A stretch of 35,058 nt of DNA from Lishizhenia sp. (lineage in GTDB: Bacteria; Bacteroidota; Bacteroidia; Flavobacteriales_D; Crocinitomicaceae). The stretch spans positions 1 to 35,058 of the forward strand of contig SKHH01000282.1 of NCBI GenBank assembly GCA_007117055.1. The letters are read 5' to 3'. Below, piece by piece: positions 20,030 to 27,231 of this stretch (the first letter of the stretch is position 1; every line of letters begins with the position of its first letter). Both the position numbers and the translations under genes were made by a program. The notes under the pieces were generated by a model. That model was given only the letters and a program-made list of their open reading frames with translations, was not told the DNA's origin and did no database searches.

Positions 20030-21190
20030 TTACTCTACCAATTGGAAAGAAACTCTTCTATTTTTAGCGTTGACTAATTGCTCATCATCGTAATCTCCAA
20101 GGAAAGGTGCTGATTTAGCGTTTTCAGCATCTTCAATAATAAAACGACTAGCGTCAACATCTTTATTAACCATTTCACTTCGAATGTATTCAGCACGTTT
20201 TTTCGATACAGCTTTCATGTTTTCTGAGACTGCTTCTACATCATCCGTATGACCAATAATTTTTACTTTTATTTCTGGGTTTTCATTCATAATTTTCGCA
20301 ATTGCATTCAATGTTTCATCACCAGCAATTGTTAAATTATATCTTCCAGATGCATAAAACACATTGTGTTCATTGATGCGTTCTGCTAAACTCATTTTAT
20401 CAGAGAACACGGGTGAACGCTGATATATAGTTGCGCTTACTTGCTCTTGGGCATCTTTGTAAGGGCAGTCACATTGTTCATCTTGATCCAACAGTTCAAC
20501 AGAAATAGCGTCAATGTAATAATAAGCAGCTATAATTTGCTGTCCTTTTACTTCGCGAGGCTTTTTATTACGTTCATTTTTCACATCGTTATTTGGTGTA
20601 AAGTTCCCAATGGTAATAAATTTCTCGCCACCTTGAGCAACATATTCACCACAAACTAAGTCCCAACCATACATACCTGTAAAAACTTCTTCCTCTGGAT
20701 GTAATACATGAGAATCTTCAATAATAGCAGCTACTTTTTCTTTTGTCGAAAAAGGTTTCTTTGAGAAATGAGCGGCTAATTTATTGGAAGAATATTTAGA
20801 GAGTTCAGCCAAAGAAGCATAAAACATTACCTTGTAGCGCATCCCTTTTTTCATTGGAGTGGTAAGCTTTGTAGTGATATACTGTCTTTTTTCTTTATCG
20901 TTGTAAGAGTAAACAACAATACCAGCGTAGTTATCACCATCTTTAGCATCCTCTTTACCGTATACATTTTCTGGAGTCATTACGTCTGGCATTTTTGCAT
21001 AAGCAGAAAATAAATCTGCTGTTACACCAGTGGGTGAGCTCCAACCTTCAGCATATTCTATACCTCCTAATCTTCTGAGTTTATTTGAAGCTTCCTCAAA
21101 GCTTCCGTTTTCCACTAAGTTTTCTTTGTCTTGAGCTGTTAAAGCAAAAGATAGTAAACATACTGGAAGAAATGATAATATTCGTTTCAT
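20030..21190 (-). CDS. OmpA-family envelope protein with N-terminal carbohydrate-binding-like domain
   Basis: 386 residues from the Met at 21190. The track begins 7 codons earlier, overlapping hemE, but MKRILSFLPVCLLSFALTAQ is a complete signal peptide. The mature N-terminal half (NLVENGSFEEA, then YAEGWSSPTGVTADLF, DGDNYAGIVVYSY and RYKVMFYASLAE) looks like a galactose-binding/CBM-like jelly roll common in Bacteroidota OmpA proteins. The C-terminal half from about residue 285 (LNAIAKIMNENPEIKVKIIGHTDDVEAVSENMKAVSKKRAEYIRSEMV) is the OmpA/MotB peptidoglycan-binding domain, with GHTDD and KKRAEYI. It probably ties the envelope or a surface glycan to peptidoglycan. It is 10 bases downstream of hemE and may share its mRNA. 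Confidence 0.88.
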   Translation of the reverse strand: MKRILSFLPVCLLSFALTAQDKENLVENGSFEEASNKLRRLGGIEYAEGWSSPTGVTADLFSAYAKMPDVMTPENVYGKEDAKDGDNYAGIVVYSYNDKEKRQYITTKLTTPMKKGMRYKVMFYASLAELSKYSSNKLAAHFSKKPFSTKEKVAAIIEDSHVLHPEEEVFTGMYGWDLVCGEYVAQGGEKFITIGNFTPNNDVKNERNKKPREVKGQQIIAAYYYIDAISVELLDQDEQCDCPYKDAQEQVSATIYQRSPVFSDKMSLAERINEHNVFYASGRYNLTIAGDETLNAIAKIMNENPEIKVKIIGHTDDVEAVSENMKAVSKKRAEYIRSEMVNKDVDASRFIIEDAENAKSAPFLGDYDDEQLVNAKNRRVSFQLVE

Positions 21191-21200
21191 GTTTCGTGTT

Positions 21201-22235
21201 TTAAAGTTCATAGCTTTTTACAGTTTTAATAAATGTTTTAACCTTTTCCGGGTCAATATCAGGATATACTCCATGACCCAAATTTACAATATGTCGTTTA
21301 CTTTCAAAGGTTTCGAGCATATTTTTTGTCAGAGCTTCTACTTCTTTGTGCGACGCGTATAGTGCACAAGGGTCTAAATTTCCTTGTAGCGTACGTGTTT
21401 CCTTTACAATATCCCGAGCTTGACCAATGTTCATGTTCCAATCTAATCCAATTGTGTTACATGGAATTTGAGCAATGTCTTCAATTGCCGCATAAGCGCC
21501 TTTCGAGAATACAGTAACTGGAACTTCAGTAATAGCAGAAGTGATCTGTTTAATATATTCCAAACCAAATGTCAAATACTGTTCGTGCCCTAAAATTCCT
21601 GCCCAAGAATCAAACACTTGTACCATATCGGCTCCTGCTTTAATTTGAGCTTTCAAGTAACGAACGGTAACGTCTGTGATACGTTGAAGCAAATCATGTG
21701 CCAACTTTGGATTTGTGTATAATACTTTTCGTGCTTTAGAAAATGTTTTAGACCCTTGACCTTCTATCATGTAACAGAAAATTGTCCAAGGTGCGCCAGC
21801 AAAACCTATTAATGGTACACGACCTGAAAGTTCTTTTTTTGTGATTTGAATAGCTTCCATTACATACCCCAATCGATCATTAACATCAAAGTCAGTTTGA
21901 GCATGAGACGCAAAGTCATCCAAACTTTTTATGGTTTTAGGAAAATAGGGCCCTTTCTTTTCTACCATTTCGTAGGTTAATCCCATTGCTTCTGGAATTA
22001 CAAGAATATCTGAGAAAATAATGGCTGCGTCTACATCTAAGATATCTACTGGTTGAATAGTGACTTCAGCTGCGAGCTTAGGTGTTTCTACTAGTTCTTT
22101 AAAACCACTCAATGAATTTCTTACAGCTCTATATTCGGGTAAGATTCTTCCCGCTTGACGCATTAACCATACTGGGTACCTTTCGATATTTTCACCTCTA
22201 GCGGCTCTTAATATCAAATCATTTTTTATCTCCAT
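21201..22235 (-). CDS. hemE: Uroporphyrinogen decarboxylase
   Basis: Removes four carboxyl groups from uroporphyrinogen III to give coproporphyrinogen III in haem synthesis (cytoplasmic). 344 residues, the normal length. The N-terminal signature [16 protein letters not shown] (Arg26 and Arg30 bind substrate carboxylates), [14 protein letters not shown] with the catalytic Asp76, [16 protein letters not shown], and LQGNLDP near the C-terminus are all present. A TATCTTTG element sits almost directly upstream of the ATG. The OmpA-type gene follows after 10 bases with no functional link that I can see. No other haem genes are in the window. Confidence 0.97.
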
Positions 22236-22361: not shown

Positions 22362-22697
22362 TCAACCTCCTTTTTTCTTCGTTTTATATCCTAATTTTGA
22401 AAGGACATCAATTACTTTTTCTCGGTGATTTCCTTGAATTAAGATTTCTCCATCCTTGGCCGTACCGCCAACACCACAAGAACTTTTTAATTGCTTCCCT
22501 AAATCTTTTAAGTCTTCATCTGTTCCAATAAATCCTTCTACGAGTGTCACTTCTTTTCCTTTTCGCTTTTTTCGGTCTATCGAAATATACAGAAGTTGCT
22601 CGTTTGCAGGGAGTATCTCTTGCTGTTCTTCATCCTCATCTTCATAATGAAAATCTGGATTGGTAGAGTAAACGATATTTTTACGATTTTTTCCCAT
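22362..22697 (-). CDS. SUI1/eIF1-family translation factor homologue (YciH-like)
   Basis: 111 residues. The C-terminal 75 residues form the SUI1 fold: a basic strand RKKRKGKEVTLVEGFIG, then LKDLGKQLKSSCGVGGTAKDGEILIQGNHREKVIDVLSKLGY. The CGVGGTAKDGEILIQG loop is the family hallmark. Bacterial YciH is thought to influence initiation fidelity; its role in Bacteroidota is unknown. The N-terminal 35 residues are acidic and low-complexity (YEDEDEEQQEI). It is the last gene of a tight minus-strand run, 3 bases after the GDPD-like lipoprotein gene. Confidence 0.92.
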   Translation of the reverse strand: MGKNRKNIVYSTNPDFHYEDEDEEQQEILPANEQLLYISIDRKKRKGKEVTLVEGFIGTDEDLKDLGKQLKSSCGVGGTAKDGEILIQGNHREKVIDVLSKLGYKTKKKGG

Positions 22698-22700
22698 ACG

Positions 22701-23504
22701 TCATTTTTCTATCAATGCTGTTTTGAATTCTTCCACCATTAAATAAGTGGGTCTTTTTTGTTTTGCTCTTCTTATCGATAACGGTGTTCGCACATCAAAA
22801 ATAACAACTTTAACAGCGAAGTCAAGGAGTTCTTTGGTTTCTTTTTCTGTTATATTTCGGTTACGTATAAAAAAACCATCGTAAGGATATAATTCTAATC
22901 GTTCTTTTCCGTTGGCTAGGGAGTTGATATCGCAATAAATGGTATAACCTGCTAACCCTATGGCGTAGGCAAATCGTATGTCGTTTACAATTAACTTTAC
23001 ATCATAATGTGGGAGTTCAAATAACGCTAACTCTCCAAGGGAAAGAATAATATCATCAACAATTAAACTATCGTAGTTGCAAGAAGAATAGGTTTTTAAA
23101 TCAAGGAACAATGTTTTTTTTGCTGAAAACGATTCAAAGTCAACCTCGGTTAGACGCACTAATTTTTCCCTTCTAAGTGTTGAATAGTTGAGTCCTTCTA
23201 TCTCGCTGTCGTATTTTTCACAAATCTGACCAGTGCCATTGGTGTTGTTTTCTAAACGGTCATCGTGGTATAGCCAAAATGTTCCATCTTTACTTCGTTG
23301 AATATCTACTTCTATTCCATCTAATTCAGTAAATGATAGCGCATATTCTATCCCTTCTTTAGAATTGTCATGAAAATACTGTTGTGGATTGTACAGTCCT
23401 GTCGCAGCATGAGCGATTATTGGAACGTCATGATTGATACTGTCCTTATTACAAGAAGTAATGAATAAGATAACTAGAATACACCATATATATTTACCAA
23501 ACAT
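22701..23504 (-). CDS. Divergent glycerophosphodiester phosphodiesterase-like lipoprotein
   Basis: 267 residues. Lipoprotein signal peptide with lipobox FITSC (Cys18), so envelope-anchored. The GDPD/PI-PLC TIM-barrel start is visible: IIAHAATGLYNPQQYFHDN, then LDGIEVDIQRSKDGTFWLYHDD. The catalytic/metal set His32, Glu65, Asp67 and His80 is kept, but the normal HRG motif reads HAA: the Arg next to the first His is replaced by Ala33. Later barrel strands (TLFLDLKTY, VKLIVNDI, VVIFDVRTP) fit the fold. Canonical enzymes split glycerophosphodiesters to glycerol 3-phosphate and an alcohol. The altered motif leaves activity and substrate uncertain. It overlaps the beta-barrel-like gene by 11 bases; the patatin gene is two genes upstream. 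Confidence 0.75.
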   Translation of the reverse strand: MFGKYIWCILVILFITSCNKDSINHDVPIIAHAATGLYNPQQYFHDNSKEGIEYALSFTELDGIEVDIQRSKDGTFWLYHDDRLENNTNGTGQICEKYDSEIEGLNYSTLRREKLVRLTEVDFESFSAKKTLFLDLKTYSSCNYDSLIVDDIILSLGELALFELPHYDVKLIVNDIRFAYAIGLAGYTIYCDINSLANGKERLELYPYDGFFIRNRNITEKETKELLDFAVKVVIFDVRTPLSIRRAKQKRPTYLMVEEFKTALIEK

Positions 23505-23988
23505 AAGCCAGCCCCAAAGATATGTGATACGTAAAGTAATTTGTTCTTAAATCGAAAGAAGTTCTTTCTCTTCCTAATCCAATTCCAGAAGATTGAAAAA
23601 TCCTCCATTTTTGACCGTAGAAAAGATGATATCCTGCTTGAAATTCAATGTTCTCAATTTCTGTTTTTTCCGTTAGTGAATATTTACTCCAATTCCCGCT
23701 TATTTCGGGTGATATAATTAACGCAAGCGAATTGAATTCAAAAGAATAGCCAATGGCTTGGCTCAAGCGTGGGTGAAAACGTTGCTGGACGTATGAGCGC
23801 ATGACTCCAATTCCCATGCTCGATCGTAAATTTAGGGGGATATCAAACAAAATAACTCCTTCAAAATTATGATAAGTATCTATTTTTCCTCTTGAAAAAG
23901 ACTTAATAAACGCAGCTGTTTGACTATAGCTTACACTAAATAAACTACTAGAACAAATGAGTAGGAGTGCGCAAATCGTTTGTTTCAT
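23494..23988 (-). CDS. Small outer-membrane beta-barrel-like protein of unknown function
   Basis: No family recognised. 164 residues with a signal peptide (MKQTICALLLICSSSLFSVSYSQ). The mature part alternates hydrophobic and polar residues in strands of 8-12 (EGVILFDIPLNL, MGIGVMRSYV, AIGYSFEFNSLALIISPEI, IEFQAGYHLFYG, SSGIGLGR, YFTYHISLGLAYVW) and ends in an aromatic residue, as outer-membrane barrels do. A barrel of about 8 strands is my inference. It overlaps the patatin gene by 4 bases (ATGA) and the GDPD-like gene by 11 bases, so it is surely co-transcribed and perhaps co-functional with them. Confidence 0.65.
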   Translation of the reverse strand: MKQTICALLLICSSSLFSVSYSQTAAFIKSFSRGKIDTYHNFEGVILFDIPLNLRSSMGIGVMRSYVQQRFHPRLSQAIGYSFEFNSLALIISPEISGNWSKYSLTEKTEIENIEFQAGYHLFYGQKWRIFQSSGIGLGRERTSFDLRTNYFTYHISLGLAYVW

Positions 23989-26285
23989 TCTTCGTCAAAT
24001 TGCAATAATTCGATTAATTTTTTTAACTCTCTTTGATTAGCAGGGGATTGGAAAGCACTCGCAATTTTCTGTTTTTCTTGTTTCGTTAAGTGCCACGATA
24101 AAGCAATTTGTTCTTCAATGTTTTCACGCAGGTTAAATGTCACAACATCAAGCGGGATATCCCAGTAATTTTGCAAGGTCATAATCAGCTCATCTTGGTC
24201 GAAATCTTGAACCCGAGGAAAGTTTCCGTAAAGGTTTCCAAATGGAAGTAAAAATTTATTGAACAATCCTATTTCCTTGTATTTTTCAGACAATAGAATT
24301 TTTTTGGTATCACGAATTTTTACCAATACTACTCCTGAAGTGTTCTTTTTAATCCAATCTTCTAATGCGATTAAAAACTGCACTGAAATTTTTGTTCCGT
24401 AATTATCTCGTATACCTGCGTCCATGATGTGCATTCCCGGCTGAGTTGGAAGCGTAACCATCGGAAGAATGTAAGGGAAAGTTGCGTTCATGCGCAACAC
24501 GGTTGGGAAGTAAATGTTTTCGGGCTGTATATCTGAAAAGTATTTTAAAAACTCTACATTTTCTAACTCTGCGTACAGTCCAAAATTAGGGGATTGAATG
24601 ACCAATTCATTAAGGAAAGAGAGGTGTTGAGCACTTACTATCAATCTTCTACCGTCATTAATAATCGTAGGAGAAAATATCATTGTGGGAATTTGAGCTT
24701 TGCGTTCGGGAGCACAATAATCTCCTAATGATTTGTCCAATGTGCTATCGAGGTTGTTTATTAACTCTTGCTCAAATGCAAACCCTCTGTCTTTTGTGTA
24801 ATACATTCCGTTGTGTTCTGCCTTATGAAAACGAAAGAAGATGTCATTGGTGGATAAAGAAAAAGATATTCGATTCAATAAATCTTTTCCAATATTTTCT
24901 TTGTGTTTCTGATCGAGTTTGTTGAGTTTTTCGGTTGAATGCTGTAACATTAACTCTCGATAGTATGCCGCACCAATCATTCCACCAGAAGCTCCTGTGA
25001 TCATTTGGAGACTGTTTCCAAATTTACTTTTTGTTAGGGAATCTAAAGATTGTAAAACGGTGAAAGTCCATAAAGCACTTCTTAATCCACCGCCACTGGT
25101 GTTTAGTAGAACTAATTTTGGTTTATCAATAGGTTGTTTCTGTTTCCATTGATCGAGAATTTCGAAGTAGGAAAGCTTGTCTTTGTCTATTTCGCTTTGG
25201 TTAAATCCAATTTGCCTAACGCGCTCTGGAGTAAAAGGAACAAGTTGCCCTTCCTCGTATGAAAGTCCTGTGGCTTCACTTTTGAAGTTAAAAGAACTGG
25301 TATAAATACTTAAGTAATTTAACCCAAAAAGTAACACAATAATGATAGGATAAGCCCAACGATTTACCCACGAAAATAAAGCGCTGATTAACATAATTAT
25401 GATGGTGAATAACATCATTAAACTAACACTTGCTGGGACTTGAAAAGCTTCAAAATCTTTGAAAAATCCAATTAACCCAAAGGAAACAACCAATGCAATT
25501 TCAAAAAAGGAGGCATTGGTATGGTTTTGTGCGAAGACACTTCTTAATATGCGAATGTCATAATGCCTGCAACTTCTCGATTGCTTTAATTTGAAATTTT
25601 TTCCAATATAATAATACTGTCTATCTGCTGCGGCTAGAAAATCAGAATACCATGTTTGATTTTTGTGTAAGGTTGAACCTATATTACTTTTAGCGTTAAA
25701 CTCTTCTTTGCTTTTTCCAGAGATTTTAAATATATCTTTATTCGTAGGGAAAAAATATAAAAAAGCCAATGCGATAAATAGAATAGCGCCTAATAATAGT
25801 GCACTAACGAATAAAATAGCATCTGTTGAAGAGGTTAACTCTTGTTGAATTTGAAAATAGAAAACGTTAAAAGAGAAGTTTAAAAAAAACAACAGTGGTA
25901 GTAGGCTGTTGTTAATGCAAAATTTAAAAAAGGGTCGTTCTAGTGTAGCGATAAATGGATATTTTGCTCCCAAATGAATGTAACTATAGGCATGGAAAGC
26001 CATAATAAAACCACCTAAGCTTAATCCTAAGAGAAAAAAAGATATAAAGCTAGTACTGCCGTGGTATTCTGGAGATAAAAATAAATAGGGTAATCCAAAA
26101 GTAGTTCCAGTTTGCTGATTGATTATCAGGAACAAAAACAACCAATAGAACAACAATACAATATTGTATTTGAATTGTAAAAAGAGCAGATTAAATGGGA
26201 AAAAGTATTTGATTTTTTTCCATCCACTCTTCATATATGACCATGCTGTTTTCAAATTATCTATTGTGTTTTTGATGAACTTCAA
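23985..26285 (-). CDS. Polytopic membrane protein with C-terminal patatin-like phospholipase domain
   Basis: 766 residues. The first 335 hold about six or seven membrane segments (roughly 40-57, 80-100, 127-146, 156-179, 262-276, 287-305, 311-328). The C-terminal part is patatin-like: the oxyanion loop TSGGGLRSAL (397-405), the nucleophile elbow GASGG with Ser433, and the dyad Asp622 in MDAGIRDNYG. Patatins are lipid acyl hydrolases with a Ser-Asp dyad. The fusion to a polytopic domain suggests that it cleaves acyl groups from membrane lipids at the inner membrane; the side of the membrane is not known. The N-terminus overlaps the ureohydrolase gene by 29 bases, and the stop overlaps the next start by 4 bases. 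Confidence 0.88.
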   Translation of the reverse strand: MKFIKNTIDNLKTAWSYMKSGWKKIKYFFPFNLLFLQFKYNIVLLFYWLFLFLIINQQTGTTFGLPYLFLSPEYHGSTSFISFFLLGLSLGGFIMAFHAYSYIHLGAKYPFIATLERPFFKFCINNSLLPLLFFLNFSFNVFYFQIQQELTSSTDAILFVSALLLGAILFIALAFLYFFPTNKDIFKISGKSKEEFNAKSNIGSTLHKNQTWYSDFLAAADRQYYYIGKNFKLKQSRSCRHYDIRILRSVFAQNHTNASFFEIALVVSFGLIGFFKDFEAFQVPASVSLMMLFTIIIMLISALFSWVNRWAYPIIIVLLFGLNYLSIYTSSFNFKSEATGLSYEEGQLVPFTPERVRQIGFNQSEIDKDKLSYFEILDQWKQKQPIDKPKLVLLNTSGGGLRSALWTFTVLQSLDSLTKSKFGNSLQMITGASGGMIGAAYYRELMLQHSTEKLNKLDQKHKENIGKDLLNRISFSLSTNDIFFRFHKAEHNGMYYTKDRGFAFEQELINNLDSTLDKSLGDYCAPERKAQIPTMIFSPTIINDGRRLIVSAQHLSFLNELVIQSPNFGLYAELENVEFLKYFSDIQPENIYFPTVLRMNATFPYILPMVTLPTQPGMHIMDAGIRDNYGTKISVQFLIALEDWIKKNTSGVVLVKIRDTKKILLSEKYKEIGLFNKFLLPFGNLYGNFPRVQDFDQDELIMTLQNYWDIPLDVVTFNLRENIEEQIALSWHLTKQEKQKIASAFQSPANQRELKKLIELLQFDEE

Positions 26286-27231
26286 TGAAGTCGGTTACTA
26301 AATAAGCTAACGCTTTTCCGACCATATTATTTTCATGTGTATTTGTTGGAGCTCCTTCAGGCAAGTGCATGTAACGTACCGTTTTTGATTGAGCAAAAGC
26401 TCGGATGTATTTTCTAGCTTGGTGCATGGAAATCCCACTGCATGAAATAGCACTACTTGGCATGTTCTCTATGGTGTCTAAATCAAGCTCTATTCCCGTG
26501 TGCGGATAGTTGGAGAAATATTGATGCACTTGAATAAGGTCATTTTCAAAGTTTCTACTATTGTCAATATAGTCTTCATGAAACGTAAAAAAGTGACCGT
26601 CCCTTTTAAGTTGATCGAGCGTTTTTTGAGAATTATATCTTTTTTGAAGATGTAAAACCGAATAGTGCGACAAACTACCCGAATCAAATGCATAAGAAAA
26701 TGGATTGCCACTGTGTCTTCCTTCTAACGGTCGGTAATCCGCATGAGCGTCTAAGTTTACCACGGAAAGCGGAGATTGATGGTGAGATGAAAGGGCTTGT
26801 ATAATCGGAAAAGCATTGTTATGACCACCTCCAATGATAATTGGAATAGTATCAGGGGTCAACAGTTTATTCATTTGTGCGATGATAAAATCGTCTAATT
26901 TTTCTACTGTTTCTCTTTTTTGCACTAAAGTCATTGAAGTTGGCAGATTTTCAATGCTTATGCTCCCCATAATAGCGACTTGTGAAAAATCAGTTTCCTT
27001 AGTGGACTGCATGGAAAGAAACTTTTGACAAAATGAGTGAAAAGCGTTTTCCGATCCTCCTTTACCTAAATTGGCTTGAGGCCCCACAGATTCTTCAATT
27101 CCAATGATGAGGTATTTGGGGCTACTTGTGCCATTTATAACTTCGCCAATACGTTGTTCTAAGGCTCTACTTGAGAGATAGGTTAAACGATCTTTTTCAG
27201 ACCAAGCGTTCCAATTAAATTCCATCTTCAC
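26257..27231 (-). CDS. Arginase-superfamily ureohydrolase, formimidoylglutamase-like
   Basis: 324 residues, cytoplasmic, binuclear manganese fold. Metal ligands are readable: GGGHNNAFP (His137), NLDAHADYRP (Asp161, His163, Asp165) and GIELDLDTIE (Asp250, Asp252). EESVGPQANLGKGGSENAF near residue 46 resembles the substrate loop of formimidoylglutamase (HutG) of Bacteroidota rather than true arginase, so I prefer that subgroup. Length is slightly short for HutG there. No other histidine-degradation genes (hutH/U/I) are in the window. The start could be Met3. The gene is first in the run leading into patatin, beta-barrel, GDPD and SUI1 genes. Confidence 0.85.
   Translation of the reverse strand: MKMEFNWNAWSEKDRLTYLSSRALEQRIGEVINGTSSPKYLIIGIEESVGPQANLGKGGSENAFHSFCQKFLSMQSTKETDFSQVAIMGSISIENLPTSMTLVQKRETVEKLDDFIIAQMNKLLTPDTIPIIIGGGHNNAFPIIQALSSHHQSPLSVVNLDAHADYRPLEGRHSGNPFSYAFDSGSLSHYSVLHLQKRYNSQKTLDQLKRDGHFFTFHEDYIDNSRNFENDLIQVHQYFSNYPHTGIELDLDTIENMPSSAISCSGISMHQARKYIRAFAQSKTVRYMHLPEGAPTNTHENNMVGKALAYLVTDFIEVHQKHNR

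Follow-up and report, generated by a model that had tools for sequence, protein, structure and literature searches.

A predicted outer-membrane barrel and a GDPD-family lipoprotein encoded as a conserved gene pair in Lishizhenia and related Bacteroidia, beside a membrane patatin in some of them

Gene content and gene order

The DNA considered here, referred to as the window, is the whole stretch of 35,058 nucleotides that was analysed, i.e. positions 1 to 35,058 of contig SKHH01000282.1 from the partial (about 80% complete) genome of Lishizhenia sp. (assembly GCA_007117055.1), a member of the Crocinitomicaceae within the Bacteroidota. Positions 22362-27231 hold five open reading frames (ORFs), all on the minus strand, which encode, in this order, a HutG-like enzyme, a membrane patatin-like lipase, a small predicted outer-membrane beta-barrel protein, a lipoprotein of the glycerophosphoryl diester phosphodiesterase (GDPD) family and an eIF1-like SUI1 protein. 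This compact run had been described in an earlier note on the same DNA and is indeed present; that note had further read the patatin, barrel and GDPD genes as one envelope module, with the two outer genes as possible passengers. The present report is concerned with the barrel and GDPD genes, which adjoin one another wherever the barrel was matched in the family, and with their relation to the patatin.

The spacings between successive ORFs, in gene order, are -29, -4, -11 and +3 bases. The last three do not hinge on a doubtful start codon and stand as the earlier note had counted them. The overlap of 29 bases, on the other hand, hangs on a doubtful TTG start of the patatin ORF, since homology with relatives begins only at about residue 18-25 and later in-frame starts leave a small gap instead, either L11 (TTG, 26255; 1-base gap) or M18 (ATG, 26234; 22-base gap). 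To judge from these alignments, the true start is perhaps one of these two. The same compact gene order is found again in relatives and is therefore not a matter of chance. Promoter and terminator scans did not clearly delimit the run (the promoter count was no higher than in shuffles), and a search for the Bacteroidetes -7 motif returned nothing decisive. With the ends left undefined by these scans, it is from spacing and conservation that we infer co-transcription of the five genes. An Rfam scan of the window produced no match.

Linkage of the barrel and lipoprotein genes

Linkage was counted in 120 sampled Crocinitomicaceae genomes, with weak matches set aside for the patatin and the GDPD lipoprotein. 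The patatin was found in 97 of these, the GDPD lipoprotein in 86 and the barrel in 52, and in all 52 barrel matches the barrel gene lies directly 5′ of the GDPD gene on the same strand. A patatin gene lies within 4 kb of this pair in only 20 of the 52. More generally, patatin and GDPD are both present in 70 genomes and lie within 4 kb of each other in only 24. Of these two genes, 16 other genomes carry the GDPD alone and 27 the patatin alone. Fragmented contigs may conceal a few links in these counts, and several of the unlinked cases are far apart on one contig (for example in genomes G118, G092, G011 and G081). The proposed module thus survives in part: the three genes together are rarely neighbours, so that a fixed three-gene unit including the patatin is rejected, but the barrel and GDPD genes do form a constant pair.

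These counts bear directly on the idea behind the module, namely that the patatin deacylates envelope phospholipids, the GDPD frees the headgroup and the barrel passes lipids or products, all as one machine for lipid remodelling or export. Such sequential phospholipid breakdown is retained as an alternative: in the window and in 23 further genomes of the family the two enzyme genes do lie together, often with a DUF389 gene in between, and both enzymes may face the periplasm. It is nevertheless unlikely, given that the two genes are apart in 46 of the 70 genomes that have both, that each also occurs without the other, and that the patatin, but not this group of GDPD proteins, is widespread beyond the family.

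When 53 GDPD loci of the family were read gene by gene, an overlapping barrel ORF was found directly 5′ in 38, and the overlap is present in every one of these (-8 or more), although the longest overlaps are partly inflated by the choice of the most upstream start. Seven further Crocinitomicaceae loci have a different small barrel-like family, here called c20, directly 5′ of the GDPD gene. A second small barrel-like family, marked by the motif GGxGGYGSLNYE, stands directly before related GDPD lipoproteins at loci L106-L112, L251, L253, L256 and L258.

Within the order, strong GDPD matches are nearly confined to the Crocinitomicaceae (77 of 81 positive genomes), and more distant relatives are found in other Bacteroidia. 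At these distant loci, which belong to other families, a small barrel is encoded directly 5′, usually overlapping, in 10 of 19 readable cases; by profile matches and sequence reading, not by further models, four of the ten barrels are of the c20 type and the other six of, or near, the window type. At three loci of one family (L259, L260 and L263) the gene of a conserved secreted protein of 610 amino acids adjoins the GDPD gene in the barrel's place.

The two genes also appear to have diverged together. Across 34 loci at which SUI1 accompanies the barrel and the GDPD, mean identities are about 21% for the barrel, 31% for the GDPD and 66% for SUI1. Barrel and GDPD distances correlate with r 0.85, and with SUI1 removed the partial r is 0.71 (permutation p 0.0005), while the partial correlation between barrel and SUI1 given GDPD is 0.09. 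Such co-divergence, drawn from sequence distances, can be taken as suggestive only.

The SUI1/YciH (eIF1-like) translation factor (22362..22697, minus strand, 111 amino acids) carries the SUI1 domain PF01253 (2e-19, 70.4 bits against a cut-off of 25.5). It is single-copy in the genome of the window and occurs exactly once in each of the 34 relatives with a match. Its suggested role as a passenger is not borne out, as it lies directly 3′ of the GDPD gene in 41 of 53 loci, comprising 17 of 19 patatin-linked loci and 24 of 34 without a patatin nearby. Co-expression or a historical link, as opposed to an envelope function, most likely explains this tie. Indeed, genes that are not tied by function do keep their order here, because SUI1, hutG and ftcD (the last two being neighbours of the patatin, see below) hold their places for long without an obvious link to an envelope enzyme. 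An explanation by descent only, in which barrel and GDPD are functionally unrelated and their genes adjoin through ancient gene order and joint transcription, can draw on exactly this. It is rather improbable for the barrel and GDPD genes themselves, which stay joined away from the patatin and, in other families, away from SUI1, which show correlated divergence, and in which two barrel types are paired with the GDPD.

The barrel and the lipoprotein

The barrel protein (23494..23988, minus strand) has 164 amino acids with a signal peptide of about residues 1-22, and alone it has no Pfam match. Its AlphaFold2 model (pLDDT 86, pTM 0.71) has eight strands, in agreement with the barrel-like character that had been ascribed to it. 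A Foldseek search with this model returned eight-stranded outer-membrane proteins, specifically TtoA (3dzm), the N-terminal domain of OprF, NspA and OmpW, with best TM-scores of about 0.55-0.60, and these fold matches point to closure of the barrel. Among 38 relatives there is a common motif close to R-T-F-F-Q-x-R-F-F-P and, in most rows, a C-terminal aromatic residue. With signal peptide, eight strands and terminal aromatic residue all in place, the protein is predicted to be an eight-stranded outer-membrane barrel. It resembles TtoA, OprF, NspA, OmpW and OmpX in fold and in the number of strands of the model, but its sequence identity to them is just about 6-13% and it belongs to no Pfam family. 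A role as a PagL-type lipid A deacylase was considered and rejected: matches to the PagL and OMP_b-brl families of Pfam are weak and confined to few relatives (two for the PagL type), and there is no conserved His-x-Ser among the 38 relatives.

The GDPD protein (22701..23504, minus strand, 267 amino acids) was rightly called a lipoprotein, with a lipobox cysteine at C18 and a match to PF03009 (3e-7, 31.1 bits against a curated cut-off of 23.6). PF03009 is matched by 14 of 14 members of its group, and the sequences of solved GDPD structures match the window lipoprotein with E-values down to 2e-18. Invariant columns across the 14 members are H32, E65, D67, H80, D135 and K137, so the protein is like the PF03009 family in its His, Glu-x-Asp, His and Asp-x-Lys positions. 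It differs from that family in being a lipoprotein, in being encoded directly after a barrel and in lacking the canonical arginine of the HRG motif, which in the alignment of the members is replaced by HAA, HAG, HVA or HGG. Because this arginine is missing, cleavage of a standard GDPD substrate is uncertain. Protein D of Haemophilus is a surface-exposed GDPD lipoprotein that is not known to have a cognate barrel gene; the window protein is like it in being a lipid-anchored GDPD of the envelope.

In a survey of the lipobox at the 53 loci, a lysine at position +3 (C-x-K) was nearly invariant and the acidic pair that follows was variable, the window having CNKDS. The surface-export signal of Capnocytophaga is C-X-K-(D/E)2 (PMC5080379). 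As proof of a surface location the signal was rejected, the match being partial, and exposure of the lipoprotein at the surface is putative and not established because the acidic pair varies.

Nevertheless, the lysine, which recalls part of that signal nearly throughout, the conserved catalytic positions and the recurrence of a barrel partner in other families all fit an explanation by nutrient scavenging, in which a surface GDPD would draw on glycerophosphodiesters of the environment for phosphate, glycerol or a headgroup, the barrel would be its uptake or docking partner and the patatin would be unrelated. This explanation is doubtful on several counts. Barrels with eight strands generally have no wide pore, the surroundings of the barrel and GDPD genes showed no phosphate-regulon context, a nutrient regulon is not suggested by the lasting link to SUI1, and the lost arginine again makes a standard substrate uncertain.

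The membrane patatin

The patatin-like lipase (23985..26285, minus strand; 766 amino acids as called, with the TTG start) consists of about seven hydrophobic, presumably transmembrane, segments followed by a patatin domain at about residues 388-766. The window protein alone has no Pfam match, while 31 of 36 members of its family match Patatin (PF01734), the best at 5e-13. The catalytic dyad that the earlier note had named is conserved, as SGGGxR, GASGG (Ser433) and DAG (Asp622) are invariant over the 36 members and over 48 relatives in a second alignment. A profile search against the sequences of solved structures found nothing, and a search by fold was therefore needed. The AlphaFold2 model (pLDDT 84, pTM 0.84), in which the catalytic serine sits at a strand-to-helix turn, gave Foldseek matches to CapE (E-value 3e-6), CapV, PlpD (TM-score by target up to 0.68) and patatin-17. 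With these phospholipases the window protein shares the fold of the catalytic domain, the SGGGxR oxyanion stretch, the GxSxG serine and the aspartate; it differs in an added N-terminal polytopic membrane domain, in having D-A-G in place of D-G-G/A and in lying below detection by Pfam.

CapE and CapV are also the best fold matches, and weak matches to lipase models of the cyclic-oligonucleotide-based antiphage signalling system (CBASS) were obtained (NF041079 at 3e-5; PADLOC at 5e-4), which raised the question of an immune phospholipase effector. This is highly improbable and was rejected, since the scores are far under the curated cut-off (23 against 200 bits), none of the five genes is cyclase-like, an extra membrane domain is present and, unlike mobile defence genes, the patatin gene is conserved class-wide in the manner of a core gene. 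Specifically, 159 of the 247 Bacteroidia genomes that were sampled carry it (E below 1e-60), nearly always in one copy.

Averaged over the 48 relatives, the charge ahead of segment 1 is positive; loops 1-2, 3-4 and 5-6 are negative or neutral, and loops 2-3, 4-5 and 6-7 are again positive. By the positive-inside rule this pattern places the N-terminus inside and, with seven segments, would bring the patatin domain out into the periplasm; the protein is thus probably anchored in the inner membrane with a periplasmic active site. No published work on this full-length membrane patatin was found in the titles and abstracts searched. Named relatives of the locus are Crocinitomicaceae, e.g. Brumimicrobium, Lishizhenia and Crocinitomix. 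Six other patatin loci (L163, L176, L178, L183, L188 and L224) resemble those of Crocinitomicaceae or other Flavobacteriales, and their titles (Chryseobacterium, Planktophila, Kuenenia, Chitinophaga) may be wrong. At one locus (L072) the patatin gene is broken into two ORFs of 519 and 221 amino acids, the match containing two in-frame stops.

A candidate barrel-lipoprotein partnership

The reading that we prefer, with a probability of about 0.5, is that barrel and GDPD lipoprotein are a co-translated pair acting together at the outer membrane, beside an independent membrane patatin. More specifically, the small eight-stranded barrel would be translated just before the lipoprotein and both would work at the outer membrane, where the barrel would most likely be the cognate membrane partner of the lipoprotein, either holding it or helping it to reach, or stay at, its working face, and the lipoprotein would cleave a glycerophosphodiester-like bond. 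In most Crocinitomicaceae these two genes form one tight run with SUI1. The membrane patatin would be a separate unit, broadly conserved in Bacteroidia and often 3′ of hutG or ftcD, and in the lineage of the window the barrel and GDPD genes lie directly after it.

Several observations weigh against this reading. Three patatin-linked loci (L046, L049 and L055) have a GDPD gene without a barrel, as do about half of the distant loci, and a barrel is hence no absolute requirement; in three loci with no barrel, a DUF389 protein is encoded in its place. The lipobox fits the export signal only in part, in its lysine and not in its varying acidic pair. The partial correlation of barrel and GDPD distances controls with the slow-evolving SUI1, an imperfect proxy for the species tree, and ignores tree structure. 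Expression reasons alone can conserve a gene pair. For the patatin, AlphaFold2 joins hydrophobic segments 6 and 7 into one helix of 44 residues, and six membrane crossings instead of seven would make the patatin domain cytoplasmic.

A partnership of lipoprotein and beta-barrel at the outer membrane is known from RcsF with outer-membrane proteins (PMC4942254). The window pair is comparable by analogy, in that a lipoprotein and a barrel would be paired at the outer membrane; it differs in that the lipoprotein would be an enzyme and the barrel its dedicated neighbour. Each domain is of a known kind. What appears to be undescribed is that barrel and GDPD genes are paired in a conserved way, that the HRG arginine has been lost and that such pairs recur with barrels of two types. 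No description of this gene arrangement was found in the titles and abstracts searched, which does not prove its absence. A more far-reaching version is possible and is put forward tentatively: that barrel and lipoprotein are the two components of an outer-membrane enzyme of Bacteroidia not described before, in which a dedicated eight-stranded barrel would display at the surface, or embed in the membrane, a GDPD-type lipoprotein without the HRG arginine, such pairing being general and having come about with barrels of two types.

The positioning and employment of enzymes on the outer membrane of Bacteroidota is an open area, and a barrel that always has a GDPD lipoprotein encoded right behind it, at a barrel identity as low as about 21%, is a concrete candidate for a dedicated partnership of this sort. 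The analysis also marks a full-length membrane patatin in about two thirds of the sampled Bacteroidia genomes and corrects the earlier grouping of the genes.

The HutG-like gene and other neighbours

The first gene of the run (26257..27231, minus strand, GTG start) encodes an enzyme of the formimidoylglutamase/arginase family with 324 amino acids and the metal motifs GGGH, DAHAD and DLD. It matches PF00491 (Arginase) at 3e-21 and TIGR01227 (hutG) at 9e-23; the latter score, 80.9 bits, is below the cut-off of 229 bits, and for this reason the gene is labelled HutG-like only. A histidine ammonia-lyase is present in the genome of the window, which makes a histidine route plausible there.

Just downstream of the run (20030-22235) are the genes of hemE and of an OmpA-domain protein, which overlap by 11 bases and were not seen beside the run in relatives. 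The next gene after the patatin is often that of a DUF389 membrane protein with about 510 amino acids (L035, L037, L039, L045, L046, L049 and others), which the window does not have. In many relatives the gene that recurs immediately 5′ of the patatin is hutG or ftcD, the products of both acting on formimidoylglutamate. In other families ftcD replaces hutG in this position (L064, L195, L200, L203, L267, L270, L276, L280 and others), one locus (L222) carries both genes, and at another (L270) a HutI-like gene stands before ftcD. The same pathway step is thus kept next to the patatin by two unrelated enzymes.

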